This document shows, piece by piece, positions 1,547 to 40,521 of a stretch of DNA of 40,521 nt. Every line of letters starts with the position of its first letter. The stretch's first letter is position 1. Both the position numbers and the translations under genes were made by a program. Below the pieces are notes generated by a model. It did not search any database. It saw nothing but the letters and a program-made list of their open reading frames with translations, and was not told the origin of the DNA. This DNA is from a virus: positions 1 to 40,521 of IMG/VR virus record IMGVR_UViG_3300025000_000220; one strand, written 5' to 3'.

Positions 1547-1908
1547 GCAGTATTCTCGACACAATAAAAAAAATGTTAGGTGTCGAGACAGACGTTGATG
1601 TTTTTGATACCGACATCATAGTGCATATTAATAGTGCGCTAATGACATTGAATCAACTTGGTGTTGGTCCAGCAGATTCTTTCTTTATTTCCGATAACAC
1701 AGCGGAATGGGACGATTTCTTCGGAACGGTTACCGAACTTGAGTTAGTGAAGTCTTATATTTATTTGAAAGTTAAAATGCTATTTGATACACCAACAAGT
1801 TCGACCGTTGTCGAAGCAATGACTCGGCAGATCACCGAATTTGAATGGCGATTAACTGCACAAGTTGAGAAAAATATTATTCCAGTTGAAGAGGTGGTGG
1901 ATGAGTGA
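1543..1908 (+). CDS. gp6-like head-tail connector protein
   Basis: 121 residues, mostly alpha-helical. It contains the connector-type segments DTDIIVHINSALMTLNQLGVGP (residues about 22-43), VKSYIYLKVKMLFDTP (68-83) and a final helix ITEFEWRLTAQVE. This is the pattern I know for the gp6-like adaptor that docks under the portal ring in HK97-type phages. It overlaps the preceding gene by ATGA and the following gene by eight bases, so the three are likely translationally coupled. The length is usual for the family. Confidence 0.8.
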   Translation: MSSILDTIKKMLGVETDVDVFDTDIIVHINSALMTLNQLGVGPADSFFISDNTAEWDDFFGTVTELELVKSYIYLKVKMLFDTPTSSTVVEAMTRQITEFEWRLTAQVEKNIIPVEEVVDE

Positions 1909-2308
1909 AAAAGAAATAATGCATGTTGGTGTTTTAGGTATGCGTTGGGGCCGAAGAAATGGGTCAACACCAAATCTATCAAGAAGAGATCTTCAAAAAA
2001 AAGCATACGAGGCAAAAAGATATACTAAGATTAAGACTACAAAAGCCATCAAACGGATGTCTACAAAGGAACTCAATAAGTATCTTAATAGTCCTCTTAT
2101 GAATGAAAAAATGGCAAATGTAAAAAGAAATAAAGCAGCAATAACAGCAGGAAAAATAGTAACGGTTGGTATTCTTGCTGGACCATTTGTTTATAGAAAA
2201 ATAAAAGAATTTGCTCCGCTTATTAAAATTGCCATGGAAAATGCTGCAAACGCAAAAGTTGCCGCCAATATTGCAGGTAAAGTAATTTATGATTCTCATT
2301 TTATTTAG
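1901..2308 (+). CDS. Small HxGVLGMRWGRR-tag protein 1
   Basis: 135 residues from ATG 1901, which is preceded by GAGGTGG and overlaps the previous stop. An earlier in-frame ATG at 1865 lies within the upstream gene without a ribosome site. The N-terminus is MSEKEIMHVGVLGMRWGRR, followed by a very basic helical region (RRDLQKKAYEAKRYTKIKT) and a hydrophobic stretch near residues 82-97 (GKIVTVGILAGPFVYRK). The His-x-Gly-Val-Leu-Gly-Met-Lys/Arg-Trp-Gly tag is common at protein ends in Gram-positive phages, but its function is unknown to me. This is the first of three adjacent paralogs. Confidence 0.75.
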   Translation: MSEKEIMHVGVLGMRWGRRNGSTPNLSRRDLQKKAYEAKRYTKIKTTKAIKRMSTKELNKYLNSPLMNEKMANVKRNKAAITAGKIVTVGILAGPFVYRKIKEFAPLIKIAMENAANAKVAANIAGKVIYDSHFI

Positions 2309-2322
2309 AAAGGATAAATAAT

Positions 2323-2736
2323 ATGGAAAATGAAATTAAACACGTTGGCGTTTTAGGTATGCGCTGGGGAAGACGTAAAACTTCCGATTCATCTGGAAGT
2401 TCTTCCGGAGGAAAACGAAAGGTCCAACAATATAAATCTGGAGAAACAGCGCTTGGTGGCGTCATACGACGTAACCAGGAAAGAGCCAGTATTCGTAGAT
2501 TTGAAGCTAAGTCTTTAACTAAAAATATGGATGGCCGGAAAGTCAATAAACTTTTTGGTAAAAGAAACATTGCCTCTGCGAAAAAAAAAGTAACGAATTT
2601 TCTCATGACCCCAGAGGCATCTAAAGTTAAGTGGACTGATATGTCTAAAAATGAAAAAGGTAAAACTTTAGCTGAGTCTGCTTTACTTGTTGTTGGTGCG
2701 GCAACATTATTTGCCATTAGCAGTACCATTCATTAG
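2323..2736 (+). CDS. Small HxGVLGMRWGRR-tag protein 2
   Basis: 137 residues starting MENEIKHVGVLGMRWGRRK, with AAAGGA at 2309-2314 ahead of the start. The tag is followed by a Ser/Gly linker (SSGSSSGGKRK), a basic helical middle, and a C-terminal hydrophobic stretch (ESALLVVGAATLFAISSTI, about residues 117-135) that could be a membrane anchor. It shares only the tag and the general design (tag, basic middle, hydrophobic end) with its neighbours, which suggests old duplication with fast divergence or convergent use of the tag. Confidence 0.75.
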   Translation: MENEIKHVGVLGMRWGRRKTSDSSGSSSGGKRKVQQYKSGETALGGVIRRNQERASIRRFEAKSLTKNMDGRKVNKLFGKRNIASAKKKVTNFLMTPEASKVKWTDMSKNEKGKTLAESALLVVGAATLFAISSTIH

Positions 2737-2759
2737 TAATTATAAAAAAGGAAGGTCCT

Positions 2760-3107
2760 ATGGCAGATGAATTAAAACATGTCGGCATTCTTGGTATGCG
2801 TTGGGGCCGAAGAAGGGGATCTAATTCTTCACCACCGACTAGTCGTGAGCATAAGCAACTCAAAAGTGCTCAGAAAAAAAAAGTTAGTCAGTTAAGTAAT
2901 GAAGAAATTCGTGCTGCAAATACTCGTAAGCAACTTGAAAAACAGTATAAAGACATGAATCCTTCAAAAATTGCGCAAGGCCAAAAAGTAGTTAAGAATA
3001 TTCTTGGTGCTATTGGCGCGGCAACTCTTGCTGCCACTACAATTATTACTGCTGTCGAAACTGGTAAAAAAGTTTATGCTCAAATCACACCATTAATAAA
3101 GAAATAG
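2760..3107 (+). CDS. Small HxGILGMRWGRR-tag protein 3
   Basis: 115 residues starting MADELKHVGILGMRWGRRR, preceded by GGAAGG at 2750-2755. The middle is Lys/Gln-rich and helical (EHKQLKSAQKKKVSQLSNEE), and the end has a hydrophobic stretch (ILGAIGAATLAATTIITAVE, about residues 82-101). It has the same three-part plan as the two genes upstream. The large terminase begins eight bases after its stop, so it belongs to the packaging/head transcript. No function can be assigned from sequence. Confidence 0.75.
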   Translation: MADELKHVGILGMRWGRRRGSNSSPPTSREHKQLKSAQKKKVSQLSNEEIRAANTRKQLEKQYKDMNPSKIAQGQKVVKNILGAIGAATLAATTIITAVETGKKVYAQITPLIKK

Positions 3108-7170: not shown

Positions 7171-8919
7171 ATGGGTCAAAAGAAAGTAGCCCCCAAGTCC
7201 GATTTTAGTGGTTATGCCACTAAAAATGGTATCAAATGCAAAGATGGCCGCACAATTATGAGAGATGCATTTGCTGAATGTGATGGTATAACTGTTCCAT
7301 TGGTTTGGCAGCATTTACATAATGAACCAAGTAATATATTGGGCCATGCAATTCTTGAAAATCGTGAAGATGGCGTTTATACATATGGTGTCTTTAATGA
7401 TACCCCAAATGGCCAAAATGCAAAAATTGCAGTGGAACATGGCGACATTAAAGCGTTATCAATTTATGCTAATGAGCTGGTCGAGAAATCAAAATCAGTC
7501 ATGCATGGCGTAATTCGTGAGGTAAGTTTGGTTATGGCTGGTGCTAATGCTGGGGCATTAATTGAGAATGTCTCAATTGCTCATGGCGATGGAACCGAAA
7601 CCGATCTCGATGATGAAGTTATCATTTTTACTGGTTTAGCTTTAGAGCACGCTGATACTTCTCCTGCTGATGATTCTAAAACCACAGGAAATGACGAAAC
7701 CGTGCAAGAAGTATTTGATACTTTATCAGAGAAACAAAAAACGGTTGTTTATGCTCTTATTGCTGAGGTTTCTTCCCAATCAGAAGACGATATGGCACAA
7801 TCGGAGGATGATGATCCTGACAACACTATTAAACATACAACTGGAGATAAAAATATGAAGCAAAATGTTTTTGACAAAACCGATCCTGAAACAAATTTGG
7901 AATCATTGAGCCATGCACAATTTGATTCCATTATTTCTACCGCAAAAGAATGCGGATCTTTTAGAACTTCCTTCTTAGCTCATGCCGTAGATTATGGTAT
8001 CGAGAATATAGATTATTTGTTCCCTGATGCCAAGACTTTGACCAATTCCCCGGATATGATTCAACGCCGGATGGAATGGGTTACTGTATTTATGAACGGA
8101 ACGAAACACACGCCATTTTCCCGCATCAAATCAGTTCATGCTGACATTACTGCCGAAGAAGCTCGTGCCAAGGGTTATCTTAAGGGTGGTTTGAAGAAAG
8201 ACGAAGTTATCACTCTCTTGAAACGTATCACTACTCCTTGGACCGTCTATAAGAAACAGAAATTGGATCGTGATGATATCATCGATATTACCGATTTGGA
8301 TGTTGTTGCTTGGATGAAGGCGGAAATGCGCGTTATGCTTGATGAGGAACTTGCTCGTGCATGCCTCATTAGCGACGGTCGTGGTGTTGAGGATGATGAT
8401 AAAATCTCTGAAACTAACATCCGCCCCATCTACAAAGATGCCGATTTGTATGCTCATAAAGTTCGTGTTGATGCTGATGTAGAAGCAGATGAAATCATTG
8501 ATGCGATTATTCGTGCTCGTAAGGAATACAAGGGCTCCGGTAATCCTGTACTCTTTACCACCGCAGATTTCGTGAATGACATGCTGCTCCTCAAAGATAC
8601 TTTAGGCCGTCGCATCTACGGTACTCTTGCTGAATTGGAAGCTGCTCTGCGTGTTTCAAAGATTGTTGAAGTTGAAGTGATGGAAGGTGTTACTCGTCAG
8701 TCAACCGACACCACTCCCGTTACTTTGAACCTACTTGGCATTCTGGTTAATCTCAATGATTATACCATCGGCGCCGACAAAGGTGGTGGAATCTCGATGT
8801 TCGATGACTTCGACATCGATTATAACCAGTACAAGTACCTGTTGGAAACTCGTTGCTGCGGCGCTTTAACTAAGCCTAAATCGGCTTTGGTTATCGAACA
8901 GGTTGCTACTGCGGGTTAA
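7171..8919 (+). CDS. Fused prohead protease-major capsid protein (HK97 fold)
   Basis: 582 residues. Residues 1-130 resemble the U35 prohead protease: His48/His50 in VWQHLHNEPSNILGH, Ser97 in IKALSIYAN and Glu118 in IREVSLVMAGAN are the likely catalytic triad. Residues about 150-228 are an acidic linker resembling a scaffold/delta domain. From residue 229 (MKQNVFDKTDPE) onward the protein is an HK97-fold capsid subunit (TITxE-like, MEWVTVFMNGTKHTPFSRI, then ELARACLISDG, ending CCGALTKPKSALVIEQVA). Maturation presumably cleaves the fusion. An internal start at 7855 may also make capsid protein alone. Confidence 0.9.
   Translation: MGQKKVAPKSDFSGYATKNGIKCKDGRTIMRDAFAECDGITVPLVWQHLHNEPSNILGHAILENREDGVYTYGVFNDTPNGQNAKIAVEHGDIKALSIYANELVEKSKSVMHGVIREVSLVMAGANAGALIENVSIAHGDGTETDLDDEVIIFTGLALEHADTSPADDSKTTGNDETVQEVFDTLSEKQKTVVYALIAEVSSQSEDDMAQSEDDDPDNTIKHTTGDKNMKQNVFDKTDPETNLESLSHAQFDSIISTAKECGSFRTSFLAHAVDYGIENIDYLFPDAKTLTNSPDMIQRRMEWVTVFMNGTKHTPFSRIKSVHADITAEEARAKGYLKGGLKKDEVITLLKRITTPWTVYKKQKLDRDDIIDITDLDVVAWMKAEMRVMLDEELARACLISDGRGVEDDDKISETNIRPIYKDADLYAHKVRVDADVEADEIIDAIIRARKEYKGSGNPVLFTTADFVNDMLLLKDTLGRRIYGTLAELEAALRVSKIVEVEVMEGVTRQSTDTTPVTLNLLGILVNLNDYTIGADKGGGISMFDDFDIDYNQYKYLLETRCCGALTKPKSALVIEQVATAG
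7843..7857 (+). promoter_or_regulatory. Internal ribosome site and ATG for separate capsid protein
   Basis: GGAG at 7843-7846 is followed eight bases later by an in-frame ATG at 7855 (codon 229 of the fusion). This falls exactly at the junction between the acidic linker and the capsid domain. Initiation here would give a 354-residue major capsid protein (7855-8919). The spacing is near ideal. Whether it is used cannot be told from sequence. Confidence 0.5.
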
Positions 8920-8941
8920 TACCTAACCCTGGAGGTTCAAA

Positions 8942-9265
8942 ATGGCAATGTTTTATGGTAAAATCGGTTATGCTATAGAAGAAGAAACTGCTCCTGGTGT
9001 TTGGGAATCAGTTATTACTGAGAAAAGTTATCGTGGTAACATCGTTCGAAACAACCAACGTTGGCAGCCAAGTGAAAATCTTAATGATGACTTAGTTCTC
9101 AATAACCAAATTAGTATTATAGCCGATACATTTGCCCTCCAGAATGTAGGTACAATGCGGTACATTACATGGGCCGGGATTTCTTGGAAAATCACAAATG
9201 TTGATATCCAGAGGCCTCGGCTTCTCTTAACAATTGGAGGCGTATATAATGCCAACGCGACTTGA
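8942..9265 (+). CDS. Head closure (stopper-like) protein
   Basis: 107 residues. The pattern YRGNIVRNNQRWQPSENLND, then LVLNNQISIIAD, MRYITWAGISWKITNVDI and a final RPRLLLTIGGVYN is one I know from proteins between capsid and tail genes in many Gram-positive siphoviruses, taken as a head-tail joining or stopper protein. CTGGAGG at 8930-8936 marks the ATG. The last codons contain the ribosome site of the next gene, and the two genes overlap by 17 bases. Confidence 0.75.
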   Translation: MAMFYGKIGYAIEEETAPGVWESVITEKSYRGNIVRNNQRWQPSENLNDDLVLNNQISIIADTFALQNVGTMRYITWAGISWKITNVDIQRPRLLLTIGGVYNANAT

Positions 9266-9554
9266 GTTGCAAACTCTTTTAGAGAATATTCTTGGCAGCG
9301 ATGCTGTTTACTTTCAGCCCCCTTCAACTGTTCAGATGAAATATCCGTGCATTATTTACAAACGTATTAAGATTAATAATACTTTCGCGGATAACACACC
9401 ATTTATTACTGAGAAGAAATATATGGTCACAGTCATTGACAAAAATCCAGATAGTATTATCCCAGATAAAATAGCGGTATTGCCAAGATGCATTCACGAT
9501 AGGCAGTACACGGCTAATAATCTTAATCACGATGTATTCAATCTGTTCTTTTAA
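9249..9554 (+). CDS. Tail completion / tail terminator-like protein
   Basis: 101 residues starting MPTRLELQTLLENILGS. The start at 9249 is chosen over an in-frame ATG at 9234 because GGAGG at 9236-9240 has proper spacing to 9249. The pattern VYFQPPSTVQMKYPCIIYKR, then KKYMVTVIDKNPDSIIPDKI and a final NNLNHDVFNLFF is typical of the small protein between head closure and the tail tube gene, equivalent to tail terminator or neck proteins. It presumably caps the tail tube at the head end. Confidence 0.75.
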   Translation: MPTRLELQTLLENILGSDAVYFQPPSTVQMKYPCIIYKRIKINNTFADNTPFITEKKYMVTVIDKNPDSIIPDKIAVLPRCIHDRQYTANNLNHDVFNLFF

Positions 9555-9563
9555 GGAGAAAAT

Positions 9564-10253
9564 ATGGTTCAAAAAATCACGTGGGATGGCACTGGTCAGC
9601 GTTTTTATGAGACTGGTGTTGATCATGCTGTTCTATATCCGATCGATGCAAATGGTGCATATCCTATAGGTTACGCGTGGAATGGTATCACTGCAATTAC
9701 CGAGTCTCCAACTGGAGCCGAAGCCAATCCAAAGTATGCAGATAATCTGAAATATTTGAATCTTCTGTCGGCCGAAGAATTTGGAGCTACGATCGAAGCA
9801 TTCACTTATCCTGATGAATTCGCTGCTTGTGACGGATCAGAAGAACCTATTGATGGTGTAAAACTCAATCAACAGGCTCGTTCTGCATTTGGACTTTCTT
9901 ATCGTACCGTTCTTGGTAATGATGTTGATGGTCAAGATCTCGGTTACAAATTGCACCTCATTTATGGTGCTATGGCTGCTCCTTCTGAAAAGGGTTATGC
10001 TTCAATCAATGATTCGCCAGAAGCCATCGCTTTCAGTTGGGAAGTGACAACTACTCCAGTTTCAGTTACTGGTTATCGTCCAACTGCTTCTTTGGTTATT
10101 GACTCCACAAAAGTCGATGCAACTAAACTTGCAGCCTTCTTGGTCATTCTTTATGGTACTGCTGCAGTTGTTGATCCTGTGACTGCTGCGGTTGAAGGTC
10201 GTTTGCCCCTACCTGATGAAGTCATCACTTTGTTGACTCCGTCGGCAGGTTAA
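9564..10253 (+). CDS. Major tail protein (tail tube subunit)
   Basis: 229 residues. The N-terminal GTGQRFYETGVDHAVLYPID, then YAWNGITAITESPTGAEANP and the middle ATIEAFTYPDEFAACDG are characteristic of phi13-type major tail proteins, which polymerise into the siphovirus tube. AAGGAG at 9553-9558 sets the start. The gene is followed by a strong terminator hairpin, consistent with the need for far more tube protein than of the products downstream. Confidence 0.88.
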   Translation: MVQKITWDGTGQRFYETGVDHAVLYPIDANGAYPIGYAWNGITAITESPTGAEANPKYADNLKYLNLLSAEEFGATIEAFTYPDEFAACDGSEEPIDGVKLNQQARSAFGLSYRTVLGNDVDGQDLGYKLHLIYGAMAAPSEKGYASINDSPEAIAFSWEVTTTPVSVTGYRPTASLVIDSTKVDATKLAAFLVILYGTAAVVDPVTAAVEGRLPLPDEVITLLTPSAG

Positions 10254-10275
10254 TAATTAAATATATCTAGGTTGT

Positions 10276-10316
10276 AAGAGCCTTAGGTCTTTAAAAACTT
10301 AAGGCTCTTTATTCTT
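10276..10316 (+). terminator. Intrinsic terminator after the major tail protein
   Basis: The 5' arm AAGAGCCTTAG (10276-10286) pairs with CTTAAGGCTCTT (10298-10309) around a loop of about eleven bases, followed by TTTATTCTT. It sits between the tail tube gene and the chaperones and probably lowers downstream expression. Confidence 0.85.
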
Positions 10317-10333
10317 AAAAGGAGTTCTTAACC

Positions 10334-10714
10334 ATGCTAAAAAAAGTAATTGAATATGTTGATTATGACGACGTACCAAGAAAAGAAACATTCTATTTCA
10401 ATTTAACAAAAGCAGAATGTGTTGAAATTGAGGCTTCTGCAACTGGAGGAATTGAAAAATATGTTGAAAAGATCGTAGCTTCGGATAATAATAAAGAAAT
10501 TATGTCATTATTCAAAGAAATTATCCTAAAAGCTTATGGTGAAAAATCACCTGATGGGAAACGGTTTATTAAATCTCAAGAATTACGTGATGCTTTTGCT
10601 CAAACGGAAGCATATAGCGTGTTGTTTATGGAATTAGCTGAAAATTCTGGTATGGCTTCTGCTTTTATAAATGGTATTATTCCAAAAGCAGCAACATTAC
10701 CAGCGCAAGGTTAG
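10334..10714 (+). CDS. Tail assembly chaperone, first (gpG-like)
   Basis: 126 residues, helical and acidic. The pattern ETFYFNLTKAECVEIEASAT, then LKAYGEKSPDGKRFIKSQEL and QTEAYSVLFMELAENSGMAS matches the small chaperone that coats the tape measure during tail assembly. AAAAGGAG at 10317-10324 precedes the ATG. In lambda-type phages this frame is extended by ribosomal slippage. Here the next gene has its own start and I see no canonical slippery heptamer at the end. Confidence 0.8.
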   Translation: MLKKVIEYVDYDDVPRKETFYFNLTKAECVEIEASATGGIEKYVEKIVASDNNKEIMSLFKEIILKAYGEKSPDGKRFIKSQELRDAFAQTEAYSVLFMELAENSGMASAFINGIIPKAATLPAQG

Positions 10715-10744
10715 TACGAAAAATTCGATAATGGAGACTAGAGA

Positions 10745-11284
10745 ATGTTAAAAATTACTATACCTGATGGTGAAGGATTTAACGAAGAAACAAATGAATT
10801 TACCATACTAAAAGGTCACGAAATACAGTTAGAACATTCTCTAGTATCTTTATCGAAATGGGAGTCCGTGTGGAAAAAACCATTCCTCACAAAAAATGAC
10901 AAATCAACGGAAGAATCTATTGATTATATTCGTTGCATGACCATAACACAAAATGTCGATCCAAAAGTCTACAGTCTAATAACTCAAACAGAAATTGATA
11001 AAGTTAAAGATTATATTGCAGACTCAATGACAGCAACCACATTCACTACAGATAACCACAAAATAAATAGAGAAATTATTACCGCAGAAGTCATCTATTA
11101 TTGGATGATTGCGTTAGATGTTCCATTTGAATGCCAAAAATGGCACTTAAATCGTTTATTAACATTAATCAATGTTTGCAACATTAAAAATCAACCCATA
11201 AAAAAGGGAAATAAACAAACGATACTAAATCAACAACGAGAACTTAACAAAACACGAAGAGCACAGTTAAATACTACGGGTTAA
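10745..11284 (+). CDS. Tail assembly chaperone, second (gpGT/Gp14-like)
   Basis: 179 residues. The segments HEIQLEHSLVSLSKWESVWK, then ESIDYIRCMTITQNVDP and EVIYYWMIALDVPFECQKWH with NRLLTLINVCNIKNQP are a recurring signature of the second product between the tail tube and tape measure genes in Gram-positive phages. The C-terminus is basic (QRELNKTRRAQL). GGAGACTAGAG precedes ATG 10745. It is translated separately from the first chaperone as far as the sequence shows. Confidence 0.75.
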   Translation: MLKITIPDGEGFNEETNEFTILKGHEIQLEHSLVSLSKWESVWKKPFLTKNDKSTEESIDYIRCMTITQNVDPKVYSLITQTEIDKVKDYIADSMTATTFTTDNHKINREIITAEVIYYWMIALDVPFECQKWHLNRLLTLINVCNIKNQPIKKGNKQTILNQQRELNKTRRAQLNTTG

Positions 11285-11298
11285 TTGGAGGTTGATTT

Positions 11299-11676
11299 AT
11301 GATCGTAATTAAACATCGTGGAAACTTTAATAATACTGAGAAGTTTTTAAATGGCGCTAAGAAGATTAGATTCGTTAATATCTTGGAAAAGTATGCAAGA
11401 GAAGGCGTAAGCGCTCTTTCAGATGCAACACCAATTGACACCAGTTTAACATCTAATTCTTGGGACTTCGAGATTACAGTAACAAAAAATAGGTATGCTA
11501 TAAATTGGATTAACAGTAACGTTGTCGATGGCGTACCTATCGCTATTATTTTACAATATGGCCATGGTACAAAAAATGGTGGATACGTGCAGGGACGAGA
11601 TTACATAAATCCTGCTCTTCTTCCTATCCTCGATAAACTATCTGAAAATCTATGGAAGGAGGTAACTAAATTATGA
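11299..11676 (+). CDS. HK97 gp10-like / minor head-tail protein
   Basis: 125 residues. The order is a basic N-terminus, ILEKYAREGVSALSDATPID, a beta region, LQYGHGTKNGGYVQGRDYIN, and a final helix LDKLSENLWKEVTKL. The G(H)GT...GGYVxGRDYINPA motif is well known in the gp10-like neck protein family. The family is usually encoded before the tail tube, so its place immediately before the tape measure is slightly unusual. GGAGG at 11287-11291 marks the start. The end overlaps the tape measure start by ATGA. Confidence 0.75.
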   Translation: MIVIKHRGNFNNTEKFLNGAKKIRFVNILEKYAREGVSALSDATPIDTSLTSNSWDFEITVTKNRYAINWINSNVVDGVPIAIILQYGHGTKNGGYVQGRDYINPALLPILDKLSENLWKEVTKL

Positions 11677-21928: not shown

Positions 21929-21929
21929 C

Positions 21930-21958
21930 TCGCAAGAATAACGTCTGTTATAATGAAA
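21930..21958 (+). promoter_or_regulatory. Phage promoter P1 (TCGC-box family)
   Basis: TCGCAAGAATAAC (21930-21942), six bases, then TATAAT (21949-21954) followed by GAAAG. The -10 is perfect for a sigma70-type consensus, but there is no TTGACA. It begins right after the holin stop and drives the gene at 21987. Confidence 0.8.
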
Positions 21959-22336: not shown

Positions 22337-22339
22337 TCC

Positions 22340-22368
22340 TCGCGGAAAAAACATCCCCTATAATGAAA
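22340..22368 (+). promoter_or_regulatory. Phage promoter P2 (TCGC-box family)
   Basis: TCGCGGAAAAAAC (22340-22352), six bases, TATAAT (22359-22364), then GAAAC. Spacing from box to -10 is the same as in the other six copies. Confidence 0.78.
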
Positions 22369-22622: not shown

Positions 22623-22624
22623 TC

Positions 22625-22653
22625 TCGCAGAAATAACATCTCTTATAATGAAA
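22625..22653 (+). promoter_or_regulatory. Phage promoter P3 (TCGC-box family)
   Basis: TCGCAGAAATAAC (22625-22637), six bases, TATAAT (22644-22649), then GAAAC. This copy equals the family consensus. Confidence 0.82.
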
Positions 22654-22918: not shown

Positions 22919-22919
22919 C

Positions 22920-22948
22920 TCGCAGAAATTACAAGGGTTATAATGAAA
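22920..22948 (+). promoter_or_regulatory. Phage promoter P4 (TCGC-box family)
   Basis: TCGCAGAAATTAC (22920-22932), six bases, TATAAT (22939-22944), then GAAAC. It drives the gene at 22982. Confidence 0.8.
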
Positions 22949-23247: not shown

Positions 23248-23520
23248 ATGAGTGACCAACCAATTAAAAAAACACAGTTCCAAAAAGCTATTGAAGTAAT
23301 GGAAAATGCGGATGAGCAACAAAAAATTAATATTGAGTTAAAAAAAGACAACGCCATATTATTTAAATCCATTACTAAACAGATTGCCGAAAATGGCAAA
23401 TTTGTAGCTGTTATTCGTGAAATCCTTAAAGAAGCTGAAAAGGGTGAGTATATCAAAACCTCATGGCTTGTTGGGAAAATTCGTGAAGTGCTGTCTGACT
23501 TACTATTCTCGCAGGATTAA
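23248..23520 (+). CDS. Hypothetical helical protein
   Basis: 90 residues from ATG 23248, preferred over 23233 because the latter overlaps the ribosome site. The protein is soluble, charged and helical: KTQFQKAIEVMENADEQQKI, then ILFKSITKQIAENGKFVAVI and VGKIREVLSDLLFSQD. It looks like a small coiled-coil protein. It lies between a hairpin and promoter P5, which overlaps its last codons. No family recognised. Confidence 0.65.
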   Translation: MSDQPIKKTQFQKAIEVMENADEQQKINIELKKDNAILFKSITKQIAENGKFVAVIREILKEAEKGEYIKTSWLVGKIREVLSDLLFSQD

Positions 23521-23537
23521 CATACCTTATAATGAAA
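23509..23537 (+). promoter_or_regulatory. Phage promoter P5 (TCGC-box family)
   Basis: TCGCAGGATTAAC (23509-23521), six bases, TATAAT (23528-23533), then GAAAG. The box lies inside the last codons of the preceding gene. It drives the 23614 gene through a structured leader. Confidence 0.78.
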
Positions 23538-23613: not shown

Positions 23614-24399
23614 ATGTCACCAAATTCAATACAAAAAGGTGTTAGGGAATTGGGTATGTTGCTCAATAAAAACTCCCCAACGATTCTAACTGGGCTCAGT
23701 GTTGCTGGGCTTGTAAGTACGGTTATTCTAGCCGTGCAGGCAACACCAAAAGCAATTGATATTTTGAATGCTCCTGAAAATATGGAATTTGAAACTTGTC
23801 CCGGGTCAATACATGTTCCTATTGAAAAAACAAAACAGGAAATCATCAAGTTGACTTGGAAATGTTATATTCCAGCTGCTGCTGTAGGTGCTGCAACAAT
23901 TGCTTGTATTATTGGAGCTAATTCTATTAGTCTTCGCCGTAATGCGGCTCTCGCAAGCCTCTATACACTCACAGAACGTGCAATGCAGGAATATCAGGCG
24001 AAAGTTGTCGAGACAATCGGCAAAAACAAAGAGGAGAAGATCAAGGAACAAATACTCCAAGATAAGATCAACTCTAATCCTTTATCTGGGAATACTATCA
24101 TATTAACAGGTAAGGGCAATACTCTTTGTTATGATGTTCTCTCAGGACGATATTTCAAGAACGATATCGAAAATATCCGTCGTATTCAGAATGATTTCAA
24201 CGAGGCACTAATCACTGAGATGTACCGCAGTCTCAATGAATTATATTCTGAGTTGGGTCTTGAAGAGACGAAAACGGGTAGAGATACCGGTTGGGTTCTT
24301 GAGCATGGTAAACTTGAGATTATATTCTCGGCTAAGATTGCTGACGATGGAACACCATGCATTGTTATTGATTATCGTAACGGACCAAGGATGATATAA
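23614..24399 (+). CDS. Two-TM phage protein, paralog A (DUF6353-like)
   Basis: 261 residues from ATG 23614. There are membrane segments at about residues 22-42 (PTILTGLSVAGLVSTVILAV) and 86-104 (IPAAAVGAATIACIIGAN), then LRRNAALASLYTLTERAMQEY starting a charged helix. The C-terminal domain has SGRYFKNDIENIRRIQNDFN, then MYRSLNELYSELGLEETKTG and a GW. I associate the pattern with an uncharacterised phage family (DUF6353, from memory). The 27694 gene shares its layout. It has promoter P5 with a hairpin leader, and its stop overlaps the next ATG by one base. Confidence 0.8.
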   Translation: MSPNSIQKGVRELGMLLNKNSPTILTGLSVAGLVSTVILAVQATPKAIDILNAPENMEFETCPGSIHVPIEKTKQEIIKLTWKCYIPAAAVGAATIACIIGANSISLRRNAALASLYTLTERAMQEYQAKVVETIGKNKEEKIKEQILQDKINSNPLSGNTIILTGKGNTLCYDVLSGRYFKNDIENIRRIQNDFNEALITEMYRSLNELYSELGLEETKTGRDTGWVLEHGKLEIIFSAKIADDGTPCIVIDYRNGPRMI

Positions 24400-25922: not shown

Positions 25923-25924
25923 CC

Positions 25925-25953
25925 TCGCAGAAATAACGTCTGCTATAATGAAA
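25925..25953 (+). promoter_or_regulatory. Phage promoter P6 (TCGC-box family)
   Basis: TCGCAGAAATAAC (25925-25937), six bases, TATAAT (25944-25949), then GAAAC. The box is identical to that of P3. It drives the gene at 25980. Confidence 0.82.
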
Positions 25954-27305: not shown

Positions 27306-27707
27306 ATGAAAGAATTTCAGGATGACAACCGACGAAAATTGGAAAAAGTTGGTATTTTAATAACCAGTAAGTCTAAAGAATCGGTAAAAAAGAACAAAGC
27401 AAGTATTCCCGAACCAGCACCAGTATCAAATGATTTACCTAATGTTTGGGACCTTGTACTCCAAGATATGCAAGCTCGTGATGTTATGGGTTTACAAAAA
27501 TATAAAACCCATCTACAACCGTTTAATGGACGAGACCCGTTATGGGACGCATATCAAGAAGCTCTAGATTTGGTTGTTTATCTACGCCAAGCAATATTTG
27601 AAAAGGAGCAGTACGCTAATCAAATTAAGACTTCTTATGAATCGCGTGTTACAGCGCTTGAAGCAACTAATAACTTAAAAAAAGGAAAAAACAATGGAAC
27701 TATCTAA
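27306..27707 (+). CDS. MazG-like / dNTP pyrophosphohydrolase-like protein
   Basis: 133 residues. The block VWDLVLQDMQARDVMGLQKY, then LQPFNGRDPLWDAYQEALDL with VVYLRQAIFEKEQYANQI resembles all-alpha NTP pyrophosphohydrolases (MazG/dUTPase-2 superfamily). The EALDLVVYLR helix supplies the acidic metal-binding face together with the upstream Asp/Glu residues. Such enzymes in phages can adjust dNTP pools or alarmones. The first 45 residues are a disordered Lys/Pro-rich linker. The assignment is moderate because the full EExxE-12-28-ExxD set is not unambiguous. Confidence 0.65.
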   Translation: MKEFQDDNRRKLEKVGILITSKSKESVKKNKASIPEPAPVSNDLPNVWDLVLQDMQARDVMGLQKYKTHLQPFNGRDPLWDAYQEALDLVVYLRQAIFEKEQYANQIKTSYESRVTALEATNNLKKGKNNGTI

Positions 27708-28602
27708 TGCACAAGGTATTGTCACCAGATCCCTAAGTCGTGGCGGATTACTCGCCAAGAAATACAGTCCCGAAATTCTCATGGGACTTGGGGTTATTGG
27801 TATTGTCACAAGTGCTGTTATGGCTTGTAAAGCAACATTGAAACTTGATGAGGTTATGGCTCCATCCGAACAAGAACTGATCAAGGTACACAAGGGCCGT
27901 GAAACTTATACCCCAGATGAGTACTCACAAACTGACTACCAGAAAGACCTTGGTCTGTCATATTTGCATCGTGGCCTTGCTCTCTCTAAATTATACGGTC
28001 CTGCTGCTCTCATTGGTGTAGCCTCGATCAGTTGTCTCTTGGGTTCCCATGTCATTCTGTCAAAACGTAATATCGCCGTTATGGCCGCTTACAAACTGAT
28101 TGAAGACAGCTTCAACAAATATCGTGATCGTATCGCTGCTGAATTCGGAACAGACAAAGAACGGAACTTCCGGTTTGGCATTACACAAGAGACTGGCACT
28201 GAAACGGTTGTAGATGGTGATGGTAAGAAATCAAAACAGAAAATTACTCATGATCTGGTTGATCCTTCTGCCATAAGTGATTATGCCATTTTCTTCGATG
28301 AAAATTCTGTTGAATGGAAACGTGATAACAATCTCAACAAATTCTTCCTCACTTCAACTCAGCAATACTGCACCGATGCACTACGCAGTCGCGGTCATCT
28401 CTTCCTTAACGAAGTGTATGATATGCTGGGCGTTCCCCGTACTCAAGCCGGCTCAGTTGTGGGTTGGGTCATGAGTAAAGGTGGCGATGAGTTCGTTGAC
28501 TTCGGTATATACGAAGTACGGAATGCTGATTTCGTGAACGGCTACGAACGTTCCATCTTGCTTGATTTCAATGTCGACGGTTTGATCTACGATAGAATCT
28601 GA
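27694..28602 (+). CDS. Two-TM phage protein, paralog B (DUF6353-like)
   Basis: 302 residues. Layout matches the 23614 gene: a membrane segment at about residues 27-46 (PEILMGLGVIGIVTSAVMAC), an insert, a second at about 103-123 (YGPAALIGVASISCLLGSHV), then LSKRNIAVMAAYKLIEDSFN beginning a charged helix. The C-terminal domain has RGHLFLNEVYDMLGVPRTQA, then a GW and FGIYEVRNADFVNGYERSIL. It starts within the last codons of the MazG-like gene behind AAAAAGGAA. It ends at TGA 28600-28602, but the frame stays open for 76 more codons after that stop. Confidence 0.8.
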   Translation: MELSNAQGIVTRSLSRGGLLAKKYSPEILMGLGVIGIVTSAVMACKATLKLDEVMAPSEQELIKVHKGRETYTPDEYSQTDYQKDLGLSYLHRGLALSKLYGPAALIGVASISCLLGSHVILSKRNIAVMAAYKLIEDSFNKYRDRIAAEFGTDKERNFRFGITQETGTETVVDGDGKKSKQKITHDLVDPSAISDYAIFFDENSVEWKRDNNLNKFFLTSTQQYCTDALRSRGHLFLNEVYDMLGVPRTQAGSVVGWVMSKGGDEFVDFGIYEVRNADFVNGYERSILLDFNVDGLIYDRI

Positions 28603-36584: not shown

Positions 36585-36589
36585 CTATA

Positions 36590-36618
36590 TCGCGCAAATA
36601 ACATATGGTATAATAGAA
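36590..36618 (+). promoter_or_regulatory. Phage promoter P7 (TCGC-box family)
   Basis: TCGCGCAAATAAC (36590-36602), six bases, TATAAT (36609-36614), then AGAAG. The spacing equals that of the six copies in the membrane-protein island, although this one is 10 kb away and drives nucleases and the RNA-polymerase-like gene. Confidence 0.78.
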
Positions 36619-36663: not shown

Positions 36664-36984
36664 ATGCCTCTTGAAAGTGAATTTCAATCCAAAATAATTA
36701 AAGAAATAAAAAGACAATATCCTGGCGTTGTTGTTTTAAAAAATGATCCTAATTATTTGCTAGGTGTTCCTGACTGGTTATTTCTTTTTGAAAATAAATG
36801 GGCAATGCTCGAAACAAAGAGGTATAGTAATTCTGTTCACCAAAATAATCAAGATTATTATATCGAGTTATTTTCAAGAATGTCATTTGCCAGTTTTGTT
36901 AATCCTTCAAATAAGGAGCAGGTACTAGATGAACTTCAAATCACATTTCGACCTAATAGGCCAACACGCTTTCCTAGGCGCTAG
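36664..36984 (+). CDS. PD-(D/E)XK nuclease, VRR-NUC / resolvase-like
   Basis: 106 residues. A helical start, LESEFQSKIIKEIKRQYPGV, is followed by the nuclease core: VLKNDPNYLLGVPDWLFLFE with the catalytic Asp in GVPDWL, then MLETKR as the (D/E)xK strand, and FASFVNPSN. This is the compact VRR-NUC/Holliday-junction-resolvase-like form used by phages for branched DNA or DNA-end processing. TAGGAG at 36652-36657 precedes the ATG. Its end overlaps the next nuclease by 56 bases in another frame. Confidence 0.82.
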   Translation: MPLESEFQSKIIKEIKRQYPGVVVLKNDPNYLLGVPDWLFLFENKWAMLETKRYSNSVHQNNQDYYIELFSRMSFASFVNPSNKEQVLDELQITFRPNRPTRFPRR

Positions 36985-37483
36985 TAAGTATCATTGGATT
37001 AATTATGATGAAGAAAAAGTTTGTGATTCATATCTAAAATTTTTAGCAACTCAAAAAGGAACACGACTGCACGAGTTTGCCTCTGAATGTATTTGTTTAG
37101 GAATAAAATTACCAAAAGGAAAAAAAGCTTTAAATAATTATGTTAATGATGCTATTGGTTTTAGAATGATAGCAGAACAACCATTATTTTATTCTGATAA
37201 TTCTTTTGGAACGGCAGACTCTATTTCTTTTAGAGAAAATTTCTTAAGAATTCATGATTTAAAAACTGGAGTTTCTCCGACATCTATGCATCAACTTGAG
37301 GTTTATACTGCTTTATTTTGTTTAGAGTATAATTATAAACCTACAGAAATAGGAATTGAACTTAGGATTTATCAATTGGATGAAATTCTAGTTCATATTC
37401 CAGATCCAGAAGAAATTTTAAGAATTATGAATAAGATCATAGTGTTTGATAAAGCAATAGAAAAAATAAAATCGGAGGAATGA
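36929..37483 (+). CDS. PD-(D/E)XK nuclease, RecB/Cas4-like exonuclease
   Basis: 184 residues. GTRLHEFASECI gives the RecB-family motif I (His in LHE), FGTADSISFRENFLRIHDLK has the catalytic Asp residues and Lys (D...DLKTG), and SMHQLEVYTALFCLEYNYKP supplies the QxxxY helix. This order defines RecB-like nucleases. The size suits a single-domain phage exonuclease. AAGGAG at 36913-36918 supports ATG 36929. Start and previous gene overlap out of frame, so it is probably coupled to the VRR-NUC-like gene. It does not carry an obvious four-Cys iron-sulfur set. Confidence 0.83.
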   Translation: MNFKSHFDLIGQHAFLGASKYHWINYDEEKVCDSYLKFLATQKGTRLHEFASECICLGIKLPKGKKALNNYVNDAIGFRMIAEQPLFYSDNSFGTADSISFRENFLRIHDLKTGVSPTSMHQLEVYTALFCLEYNYKPTEIGIELRIYQLDEILVHIPDPEEILRIMNKIIVFDKAIEKIKSEE

Positions 37484-37484
37484 C

Positions 37485-40241
37485 ATGCCGTTCATTAAAC
37501 ATTCTGGTGTTAAACGTAAATCTGGTCGTTATCCTTGGGGTTCTGGGAAAGATCCTGAACAAAGATCTAAAAGTTTCTTAGGCACAGTTCGAGAAATGGA
37601 AGATAGAGGCGTAAGCGAAGTTGATATTGCAAAAGGACTTGGAATATCCGTTTCAAAGCTGAGGATAACAAAGTCAATTGAAAAAGATGCTCAGAGAAGT
37701 GCAGATGCTGCTGAAGCTCTTCGTCTTAAAAATAAAGGTTATTCAAATATTGCTATTGGTGAAAAAATGGGTAAAAATGAATCTTCAATTCGTGCCCTTC
37801 TAGACCCAGCAATAAAAGATCGCGCCAATGTTACAAGAGAAACCGCTAATGTTTTGAAAAAAGTTGTTGATGAAAAAAACTATATTGATGTTGGTGCTGG
37901 AATTGAAAGACACTTAGGTATTAGTAGAACAAAAATGGACACAGCTGTTGGCCTTCTTGAAGAAGAAGGTTATAAAGTTCATTATGTTACTGTTAGGCAA
38001 TTAGGTACAGGTAAGAACACATCGATAAAAGTTTTAACAAAAGAGGACACTACTTATTCTGAAGTGTATAAAAATAAGGATAAGATCAAGATGCCAATTG
38101 ATTATTACACTGAAGATGGTGGAAGAAATTGGGTTGGTTTATCTACAACTCCTAATAGCGTTAGTAGTAAAAGAATTAAAATCATGTATGCTGAAGATGG
38201 TGGAAGTTCAAAAGACGGTGTAATCGAACTTCGTAAAGGTGTGGATGATATTTCTTTAGGTAATTCCAAATATGCCCAAGTTCGTATTGGTGTAGATGGA
38301 ACACATTACATGAAAGGTATGGCTGTTTATAGCAATAACATTCCTGATGGATATGATATGGTTTATAATACAAAAAAACCTTCAAGCACCGCTAAAGAAA
38401 AAGTATTTAAAGAAATGAAAGATGATCCTGTTACTCCTGATAATCCTTTTGGTTCAATAGTTAGACAAAGAAAATATTTAGATGCTAATGGTAAAGAACA
38501 ATTATCAGCATTAAATATTGTCAATGAAGAAGGAGATTGGACTGATTGGTCTCGTAGTATATCTTCGCAAGTACTTTCAAAACAAAGGCCAGCATTAGTA
38601 AAAAAACAACTCGATTTGGCTTTAAATTTAAAAAAAGATGAGTTCGATGAATTGTCAACATTAACAAATCCTGCTGTAAAAACAAAACTATTGACAACTT
38701 TTGCTGATGAATGTGATTCGGCAGCTGTTCATTTAAAGGCAGCAGCATTACCAAGACAAGCAAATAATGTAATATTACCTTTTAATTCTGTAAAACCGAA
38801 TGAAATTTATGCCCCTGGCTTTAAAAATGGCGAAGCAGTAGTTCTTATTCGTCACCCTCATGGTGGTATATTTGAAATTCCAGAATTAATCGTTAATAAC
38901 AGAAATAAAGAAGCAGATTCAATTCTTCATAATGCTAAAGATGCAGTAGGAATACATTCAAGCGTTGCTAGTAAATTATCAGGTGCCGATTTTGATGGTG
39001 ATACAGTTCTCGTTATACCTAATAATAGTGGTCATATAAGAACTGCCCCTTCTTTGAAAGCACTAAAAGATTTTGATTCAATCAGAGCATATCCTGGTTA
39101 TGAAGGAATGCCCAAATTAACTGACAAAAGAAAACAGCGTTTAATGGGCGATGTATCTAATCTTATTACTGATATGACCATAAAAGGTGCTAATACTGAT
39201 GAAATCGCAAGAGCAGTAAAGCATTCTATGGTGGTTATTGATGCGGAAAAACATAATCTAAATTACAAACAATCAGCAGTAGACAATAACATTGCCGAAT
39301 TAAAGGCCAAGTATCAAGGTAGTTCAAGATCTGGAGCATCAACATTAATATCAAAAGCTAGTTCAGAAAAAGATGTTCCTTATCGAAAAGAACAAACTGG
39401 AATTGATCCTGCAACTGGAAAGAAAGTCTATAAGTATTTTACTGGAGAAAAAGTCGTAAATCAATATGGCGGTACTACAAAAGTAACGACAACAAGTTTA
39501 GATGAAGCGTTAAGATCTCCAGGAGAAACTTATGTAAAAGTAACTGCTAATAAACGTGGCGATACAAAAGAAACAGTCGTTAGGCGCATGACAAAATCTA
39601 CTAAAATGGCAGAAACTGATGATGCTAGAACTTTATCTTCAGGAACTGTTGTTGAAGAAATTTATGCGTCATATGCTAATAATTTAAAGAATCTTGCTAA
39701 TACTGCTAGAAAAGCTGTCGCATCTACAGGTCCAGTTGTATATTCGCCAAGTGCTAGAAAAGTATATTCCAAAGAAGTCGAGTCTTTATTAGCAAGTTTA
39801 AACATTGCAGTTAGGCATAAACCTTTGGAAAGGCAAGCTCAATTGCTAGCAAACAAAAACATTGAATTGAAAAAAGCATCTAATCCAGACTTAGATCCTG
39901 CTTCTCTTAAGAAATTAAAAGGGCAAGCCTTAGAAGAAGCAAGAAGAAGAATTGGTGCTACTCCAGATAATCCAAATGGTGGTAAAGTAAAGATTAAAAT
40001 TTCAGATAAAGAATGGGAAGCTATACAGGCGGGGGCTATCTCAAATAATACCCTCCTGGAGATACTTTCTAATACTGATCTGAAGGTGGTACAACAAAAG
40101 GCATTACCAAGAACTGTTACTGGAATGCCATCTTCAAAGATAGCAAGAGCCCGCAGTATGTTATCTTCCGGCTATACACAAGCTGAAATAGCATCCGCCT
40201 TAGGCGTTTCTATAAATACTTTGTATGATAATTTAAATTAA
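37485..40241 (+). CDS. Two-barrel RNA polymerase-like protein with HTH domains (YonO/QDE-1-like)
   Basis: 918 residues. The core has LSGADFDGDTVLV with Asp502, Asp504 and Asp506 placed as in the metal-binding DxDGD of multisubunit RNA polymerase beta-prime and of YonO/QDE-1 enzymes. Upstream, VLIRHPHGGIFEIPELIVN (about 453-471) and DAVGIHSSVASK resemble the strand series leading to that motif. Residues 35-107 carry two HTH-like segments (VSEVDIAKGLGISVSKLR, YSNIAIGEKMGKNESSIR), and the last 40 a third (YTQAEIASALGVSINTLYDN). The N-terminus (KHSGVKRKSGRYPWGSG) resembles phage tag motifs. GGAGG at 37475-37479 sets the start. RNA synthesis is inferred, not shown. Confidence 0.78.
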   Translation: MPFIKHSGVKRKSGRYPWGSGKDPEQRSKSFLGTVREMEDRGVSEVDIAKGLGISVSKLRITKSIEKDAQRSADAAEALRLKNKGYSNIAIGEKMGKNESSIRALLDPAIKDRANVTRETANVLKKVVDEKNYIDVGAGIERHLGISRTKMDTAVGLLEEEGYKVHYVTVRQLGTGKNTSIKVLTKEDTTYSEVYKNKDKIKMPIDYYTEDGGRNWVGLSTTPNSVSSKRIKIMYAEDGGSSKDGVIELRKGVDDISLGNSKYAQVRIGVDGTHYMKGMAVYSNNIPDGYDMVYNTKKPSSTAKEKVFKEMKDDPVTPDNPFGSIVRQRKYLDANGKEQLSALNIVNEEGDWTDWSRSISSQVLSKQRPALVKKQLDLALNLKKDEFDELSTLTNPAVKTKLLTTFADECDSAAVHLKAAALPRQANNVILPFNSVKPNEIYAPGFKNGEAVVLIRHPHGGIFEIPELIVNNRNKEADSILHNAKDAVGIHSSVASKLSGADFDGDTVLVIPNNSGHIRTAPSLKALKDFDSIRAYPGYEGMPKLTDKRKQRLMGDVSNLITDMTIKGANTDEIARAVKHSMVVIDAEKHNLNYKQSAVDNNIAELKAKYQGSSRSGASTLISKASSEKDVPYRKEQTGIDPATGKKVYKYFTGEKVVNQYGGTTKVTTTSLDEALRSPGETYVKVTANKRGDTKETVVRRMTKSTKMAETDDARTLSSGTVVEEIYASYANNLKNLANTARKAVASTGPVVYSPSARKVYSKEVESLLASLNIAVRHKPLERQAQLLANKNIELKKASNPDLDPASLKKLKGQALEEARRRIGATPDNPNGGKVKIKISDKEWEAIQAGAISNNTLLEILSNTDLKVVQQKALPRTVTGMPSSKIARARSMLSSGYTQAEIASALGVSINTLYDNLN

Positions 40242-40254
40242 GAAAGGATGTCAA

Positions 40255-40521
40255 ATGGTAAATGTTATTGAACCCCCTAAAATGTTGAGTACTTTAGACA
40301 ATCCTTTTAATCCTTTTACACAGTATGATGAATGGAACGCTTTTGATATGTCGATGGGCTACAATACAAATGCTTACTTAGCAAGAATAGCAATGTCTTC
40401 TGATGAATTAAGTGAAGAAGATGAATCATTAGCTATTGATCAAGCAATGAATGAGATAGTAGAACTTAATCTTACAGGTAACTACATTATAGTTACTAAA
40501 GAAACTTTTAAAGTAAGAACC
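40255..40521 (+). CDS. N-terminal part of a hypothetical protein (runs off window; joins 1-129)
   Basis: ATG 40255 follows GAAAGGA at 40242-40248 and the frame is open to the last base, giving 89 residues: MVNVIEPPKMLSTLDNPFNP, then an acidic helical middle (SSDELSEEDESLAIDQAMNE) and beta strands (TGNYIIVTKETFKVRT). It ends on a full codon, in phase with the gene tail at base 1. It follows the RNA-polymerase-like gene by 13 bases. No family recognised. Confidence 0.7.
   Translation, partial: MVNVIEPPKMLSTLDNPFNPFTQYDEWNAFDMSMGYNTNAYLARIAMSSDELSEEDESLAIDQAMNEIVELNLTGNYIIVTKETFKVRT

Follow-up and report, generated by a model that had tools for sequence, protein, structure and literature searches.

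Several phages encode RNA polymerases that consist of a single chain. YonO of Bacillus phage SPbeta transcribes the late genes of its phage (PMC5467207). Thermus phage P23-45 has two single-chain two-barrel enzymes, gp64, which is not a virion protein, and gp96, which is fused to the tape-measure protein and carried in the virion, and its genes are preceded by phage-specific promoter motifs. The gp66 protein of the crAss-like phage phi14:2 is another single-chain two-barrel phage enzyme (PMC10770324). QDE-1 and the plant enzyme RDR2, on the other hand, are eukaryotic silencing enzymes. The phi14:2 gp66 enzyme is delivered with the virion.

We analyzed a virus contig of 40.5 kb (IMG/VR record IMGVR_UViG_3300025000_000220; 40,521 nucleotides, hereafter the window) that encodes a 918-aa protein comparable to these enzymes. 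With YonO it shares a single chain, a DxDGD triad, a predicted two-barrel core and a phage gene. The two proteins nevertheless have no significant sequence relationship, and membership of the YonO-like group proper was not met; no helix-turn-helix (HTH) match was found in YonO in NCBIfam, the only library scanned, whereas the window protein has four HTH-type modules, and the YonO phages lack the TCGC promoter described below. The P23-45 enzymes are likewise two-barrel single chains, gp64 being a significant fold match, and the window phage also has its own promoter motifs upstream of genes. There was no significant sequence match, and the window protein differs in being a chain on its own that carries four HTH-type modules as well as an N-terminal tag. 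A tape-measure-fused polymerase of the P23-45 kind was considered for the window phage and rejected, as its tape-measure protein has no DxDGD motif. QDE-1 and RDR2 provided the closest solved folds; fused HTH modules and an N-terminal tag are, to our knowledge, not known from either. The phi14:2 gp66 protein was absent from the top fold matches listed.

The polymerase gene is an uninterrupted reading frame with an ATG start, and the minus strand of the same interval is stop-rich throughout. The PHROG_4291 profile covers residues 4-917 with 1185.8 bits, indicating a full-length member of this family. The 918-aa frame with ADFDGD at residues 501-506 reported in the initial annotation was therefore exact and, given this family match and the invariance of the motif, not a product of chance. 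A tblastn search with the protein returned 250 phage records, and in 249 the match spans 80% or more of the protein; they come from phages of Arthrobacter, Gordonia, Streptomyces, Rhodococcus and Lactococcus (about 250 sequenced phages). Most of the matches listed are labelled "helix-turn-helix DNA-binding domain protein" and some "RNA-dependent RNA polymerase", the latter being the name of PHROG_4291 in PHROGs and RefSeq. The family is therefore already in the databases, under two names that disagree. Arthrobacter phage Mudcat gp94, Streptomyces phage Bing gp86 and Lactococcus phage 1706 orf75 are full-length homologues; family members share with the window the VRR-NUC, exonuclease, polymerase and PHROG_4303 neighbourhood, most share the promoter family, and no essential difference separates them from the window protein.

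Another viral record, UViG 2626541888_000004 (7309-11491), is identical to the window until position 39257 and then continues into foreign DNA with a reverse-strand DnaJ-like frame. Because the junction runs into unrelated DNA this record looks chimeric, and a genuine truncated allele was rejected.

An AlphaFold model of the full-length protein was built on an alignment that joined the window protein to 58 environmental relatives (59 sequences), with a mean pLDDT of 80.5 and a pTM of 0.71. The best solved structure matching this model was QDE-1 (E 4e-10, 961 columns); RDR2 of maize and Arabidopsis (E 9e-7) and P23-45 gp64 (E 4e-6, 416 columns) were also matched, as was P74-26 gp62 (the pair reported as gp64/gp62), and cellular beta' subunits matched at weaker E-values than the phage and RNAi polymerases. 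A structure search of viral models also retrieved P23-45 gp64. Global TM-scores were low (0.25-0.40) and rmsd values large, as expected between distant multi-domain relatives. The initial annotation had proposed a single-chain RNA polymerase, to be refuted if the best matches were only nucleases or structural proteins; the top matches were two-barrel polymerases instead, in support of the proposal.

The Pfam RdRP profile matched 21 of 24 diverse family members, and in the window protein it falls on residues 492-593, the DFDGD region within the catalytic barrel. In the alignment L498-S-G-A-D502 and D504-G-D506 were invariant and F503 nearly so, and LSGADFDGD was identical in all eight annotated and window proteins compared, the most distant of them about 40% identical. 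The three aspartates, RxPHG (456-460), HSMxVID (580-586), R267 and K277 were all kept in the Lactococcus phages at about 40% identity, the triad and the two basic residues being invariant as far as these phages. R267 and K277 lie in a domain, residues 222-348, that is beta-rich in the model.

Sequence-level comparisons gave less. The comparison with YonO that had been suggested initially did not bear out a relationship, since hhalign against a 32-member YonO alignment reached a probability of 1.8% (E 0.028) over the triad region only. The family profile scored against gp64, RpoB and YonO with shuffled controls was not significant either, the YonO hmmsearch score being near those of the shuffles. 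Direct phmmer of the 918-aa protein against PDB gave no matches, and the family profile against PDB gave mostly HTH and designed helical-repeat matches and no polymerases. The second barrel modelled in isolation (residues 222-425) had no fold match with E below 0.2, the best polymerase being P23-45 gp96 at E 0.5. A two-barrel enzyme had been proposed from the sequence; the full-length fold match agrees with it, the second barrel, without significant support on its own, being the weaker point. Because the isolated barrel and the profiles were not significant, the two-barrel claim is based on the match of the whole model to solved folds together with the conserved R267 and K277. On this basis the protein is very probably a single-chain two-barrel RNA polymerase, its activity being inferred without an assay.

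All the HTH-type modules were found family-wide in the 59-sequence alignment. Three HTH segments had been noted initially, two N-terminal and one C-terminal, and all three were recovered; the AlphaFold model raises the count to four, one of them probably winged. The HTH_38 and HTH_23/HTH_7 matches were above cut-off. The probable winged module consists in the model of helices 116-131, 140-144 and 148-160 and strands 164-171 and 178-185, and its profile support is weak (a BirA-like match at 138-168, E 0.089). Coordinates of all features are given in Table 1.

Table 1. Features of the polymerase locus and of related elements in the window
Feature	Position	Strand	Evidence
Head-module protein, related tag KHVGVLGMRWG, near DUF7211 cut-off	2323..2736	+	tag search, Pfam
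Head-module protein, tag KHVGILGMRWG; MT835616 relative has polymerase-type tag	2760..3107	+	tag search, Pfam, homology
TCGC-box promoter	21929..21958	+	repeat search, weight matrix
TCGC-box promoter	22339..22368	+	repeat search, weight matrix
TCGC-box promoter	22624..22653	+	repeat search, weight matrix
TCGC-box promoter	22919..22948	+	repeat search, weight matrix
TCGC-box promoter	23508..23537	+	repeat search, weight matrix
TCGC-box promoter	25924..25953	+	repeat search, weight matrix
TCGC-box promoter ATCGCGCAAATAACATATGGTATAATAGAA, heads VRR-NUC/exonuclease/polymerase operon	36589..36618	+	repeat search, weight matrix
VRR-NUC endonuclease, polymerase operon, conserved in 7/7 genomes compared	36664..36984	+	profile match, genome comparison
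Cas4/RecB-type exonuclease, polymerase operon, conserved in 7/7 genomes compared	36929..37483	+	profile match, genome comparison
Single-chain two-barrel-type RNA polymerase (very probable), PHROG_4291, 918 aa	37485..40241	+	ORF, profile match, AlphaFold model, fold matches
N-terminal tag, residues 3-25 (FIKHSGVKRKSGRYPWGSGKDPE), proposed virion-packaging tag	37491..37559	+	alignment, model, tag searches
HTH module 1, residues ~31-60	37575..37664	+	AlphaFold model; PHROG_7061 at 35-60
HTH module 2, residues ~72-106	37698..37802	+	model; PHROG_3855 at 67-105; HTH_38 at 79-102
Probable winged-HTH, residues ~116-185	37830..38039	+	model secondary structure; weak BirA-like match
Putative non-catalytic barrel (beta-like), residues 222-348; invariant R267 (38283-38285) and K277 (38313-38315)	38148..38528	+	model and conservation
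Catalytic barrel (beta'-like), residues 426-512, RHPHG 456-460	38760..39020	+	Pfam, alignment, model, fold matches
ADFDGD catalytic motif, residues 501-506	38985..39002	+	sequence, alignments
HSMVVID motif, residues 580-586, within Pfam RdRP match	39222..39242	+	Pfam, alignments
C-terminal HTH, residues ~883-917	40131..40235	+	model; HTH_23/HTH_7 at 885-915
PHROG_4303 small protein, off window end	40255..40521	+	profile match, genome comparison

The gene lies in the replication module, as initially annotated, downstream of genes for a DNA polymerase, an annealing protein, a helicase, VRR-NUC and an exonuclease. The order VRR-NUC, exonuclease, polymerase, PHROG_4303 is shared by phages Mudcat, Runhaar, HotFries, Bing, ReqiPoco6 and FP_oengus, and in P092 and 1706 a few genes, endolysin included, stand between exonuclease and polymerase. 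PHROG_4303 lies directly 3' of the polymerase gene in every genome examined; it is 45-62% identical, a conservation about equal to or above that of the polymerase, and is a possible accessory factor. Elsewhere in the window, DUF6353 proteins (PHROG_2152; 23614-24399 and 27694-28602) were conserved in all lineage genomes compared, and a direct repeat, ATAGAACTATnTTT (about 169-183 and 203-217), within 130-233 before the first complete gene is a possible late promoter element.

A repeat search of the window revealed CTCGCAgaaaTAACnnnnnnTATAATgAAA seven times: six of the copies lie between small genes in the 21.9-25.9 kb region, and the seventh begins the polymerase operon at 36589. The promoter of the lineage is [CT]TCGC[AG]nnAWWWACAnnnnnTATAAT followed by purines, with three boxes about 10 bp apart. 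A description of the promoter as a tandem TCGC box found no match and was rejected. The sites fall in the early region and ahead of the polymerase operon, the structural region of the window has none, and the genes behind the sites are inferred from position to be early genes. The promoter at 36589 first reaches VRR-NUC and the exonuclease and then the polymerase, and is therefore an operon promoter. The polymerase gene had been credited with a TCGC-box promoter of its own; its operon is indeed headed by one, but this lies 896 bp upstream and not directly before the gene.

The motif accompanies the polymerase in other phages. In 30 polymerase contigs picked by protein alone and searched with the window pattern (at most 2 mismatches), it was present in 28, almost every match being on the strand of the polymerase, and the reversed motif gave no match; in 30 contigs of YonO phages it was at background level. 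Across the whole viral collection the exact motif occurred in 80 stretches versus 2 for its reverse. Two thirds of the motif contigs (33 of 49) carried the polymerase, and 27 of 29 did so among those of at least 40 kb. The motif contigs without it mostly held clusters of the motif, several with the DNA polymerase of the lineage, as fragments of the same lineage would. With a weight matrix, the genomes of Mudcat, Runhaar, HotFries, Bing and ReqiPoco6 each gave between 6 and 14 sites, and the reversed matrix gave none at equal threshold. The TCGC motif is common to Gordonia, Streptomyces, Rhodococcus and Arthrobacter phages, and in the first three the promoter continues as TATAATGAGACCCC, conserved beyond the -10 box and the usual start-site region. 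In three of the four genomes in which it was measured, the distance from site to start codon was mostly 49-58 nt; for ReqiPoco6 it was often 24-52 nt. The motif was not found in Faecalibacterium phage FP_oengus, in which the polymerase is present. Judged from sequence, the TCGC/TATAAT promoter is a family trait of the polymerase-bearing phages. Full-length DNA polymerase and RNA polymerase were found in 252 and 249 phage records, respectively, essentially the same ones, and no group with the full-length lineage DNA polymerase and without this RNA polymerase was seen in phage records. Because the two polymerases travel together, co-occurrence of promoter and RNA polymerase cannot be separated from common descent.

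These promoters could instead be read by the host RNA polymerase with sigma-A, aided or regulated by a phage TCGC-binding factor, the two-barrel polymerase being made after infection for late genes, as YonO is. A TATAAT box followed by purines is a good sigma-A -10 element and discriminator, and the restriction of the sites to the early region and the polymerase operon, like the late role of YonO, would fit this explanation, which we consider unlikely but not negligible. Against it stands the -10 hexamer. With the hexamer anchored on the upstream boxes, position 2 varied most, being A in about 84% of 190 pooled sites, and positions 3-6 were conserved at 92-96%; this test made no correction for relatedness, and some of the sequence it used had been selected for motif matches. 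Recognition of the sigma70 type relies most on position 2, and the apparent pattern in the pooled sites is the reverse. A sigma-A reading is also opposed by the conservation past the -10 box in the Gordonia, Rhodococcus and Streptomyces phages, and by P092 and 1706. These Lactococcus phages have the same host species and different promoters in nearly all copies, TTTTACAYACCC-TATAAT-GARA in P092 and TTTTACAYAYNC-TATAGT-AGAA in nearly all copies of 1706, mostly without a TCGC box, so that nearly all copies shift together between them. The polymerases of the two share 52% identity, and each is about 40-45% identical to the others. Of the proteins conserved in every genome compared, the polymerase alone showed a recognisable HTH, the others having no HTH match. 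The hexamer pattern, the P092/1706 switch and this sole conserved HTH protein favour a phage-encoded reader of the promoters. That the polymerase itself reads them is probable, an inference that has not been demonstrated. The co-occurrence with a promoter family thus lends comparative support to the idea of sigma-free promoter reading put forward initially, which remains short of proof.

The N-terminal tag (HYGxxRxSGRYPWGSG) was far better conserved than the rest of the chain in a search with its consensus form, and in the AlphaFold model it is of low confidence or predicted disordered. In MT835616, whose terminase is 73% identical to that of the window phage, the polymerase-type tag is found on two small basic proteins flanking the terminase. 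The body of one of them is homologous (E 6e-6) to the window protein at 2760-3107, which carries the GMRWG tag of Pfam DUF7211 in place of the SGRYKWGSG type of MT835616. As the tag types are swapped on a homologous head-module protein, the GMRWG and SGRYPWGSG tags seem interchangeable there, which is consistent with a function in packaging. Three small head-module ORFs with a (K/M)HVG(V/I)LGMRWGRR tag lie at 1865-3107 of the window just before the terminase, and the two that were scanned are near the DUF7211 cut-off. In addition, orf75 of Lactococcus phage 1706 was first deposited under the label "structural protein" and later renamed, and the ReqiPoco6 record cites the "structural" label; for 1706 this is a record label, and the underlying proteomics was not consulted. 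The 1706 deposit also weighs against a polymerase made only after infection. Packaging of the polymerase in the virion is inferred from this indirect evidence, the record label and the sharing of tags, and we hold the chances for and against it to be even.

The same deposit would suit a degenerate two-barrel protein that no longer acts as a polymerase and has been retained as a DNA-binding regulator or as a structural component of the head, as would the HTH DNA-binding labels of most matches listed and the lack of confirmation for the second barrel alone. A dead enzyme is nevertheless very improbable, because, even at about 40% identity, the triad, R267 and K277 show no variation between the actinobacterial and the Lactococcus phages. 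A true RNA-dependent RNA polymerase making double-stranded RNA, as the database name says and as the RNAi polymerases QDE-1 and RDR2 among the closest folds might suggest, is hardly tenable given QDE-1 structures with a DNA template in the same list of fold matches, the dsDNA genomes of these phages, the fused HTH modules, which suggest a DNA template, and the action on DNA of the fold relatives YonO and the P23-45 enzymes (PMC5467207, PMC10770324). The database name of PHROG_4291 most likely misstates the template.

The sequence, family, fold matches, promoter family and its co-occurrence with the polymerase are observations, and from them we infer a sigma-independent, virion-carried early RNA polymerase, a reading that is reasonably probable overall, its activity, promoter reading and packaging all being inferred. 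By analogy of fold and from conservation, the catalytic Mg would be bound by D502, D504 and D506, and R267 and K277 would lie on the barrel opposite. The HTH-type modules, three of them N-terminal and one C-terminal, are part of the chain and, together with the core, probably recognise the lineage promoter without a bacterial sigma factor. The enzyme would be packaged via its HYG...SGRYPWGSG tag, injected, and would then transcribe the early genes (21.9-26 kb of the window) and its own operon at 36.6 kb. A more tentative proposal, to which we give somewhat less than even weight, is that one polypeptide combines the core enzyme with the sigma role, carried in the virion, with fused HTHs, and co-evolved with a three-box promoter family across phages of two bacterial phyla. 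Polymerases of this kind are known (YonO, P23-45, crAss-like gp66); the combination with fused HTHs, a family promoter and virion hints was not found in the literature searched.

The report on YonO did not settle what promoter is recognised by single-chain enzymes of this sort or whether a helper is required (PMC5467207). In the PHROG_4291 family a clear candidate promoter and an enzyme that contains its own DNA-binding modules come together in phages that can be cultured, on Arthrobacter, Gordonia, Streptomyces and Lactococcus, and the P092/1706 pair is a natural experiment on promoter specificity. The family could yield orthogonal polymerase/promoter pairs for Gram-positive bacteria. If the proposed reading is true, it has gone unnoticed that about 250 sequenced phages bring along transcription machinery of their own.
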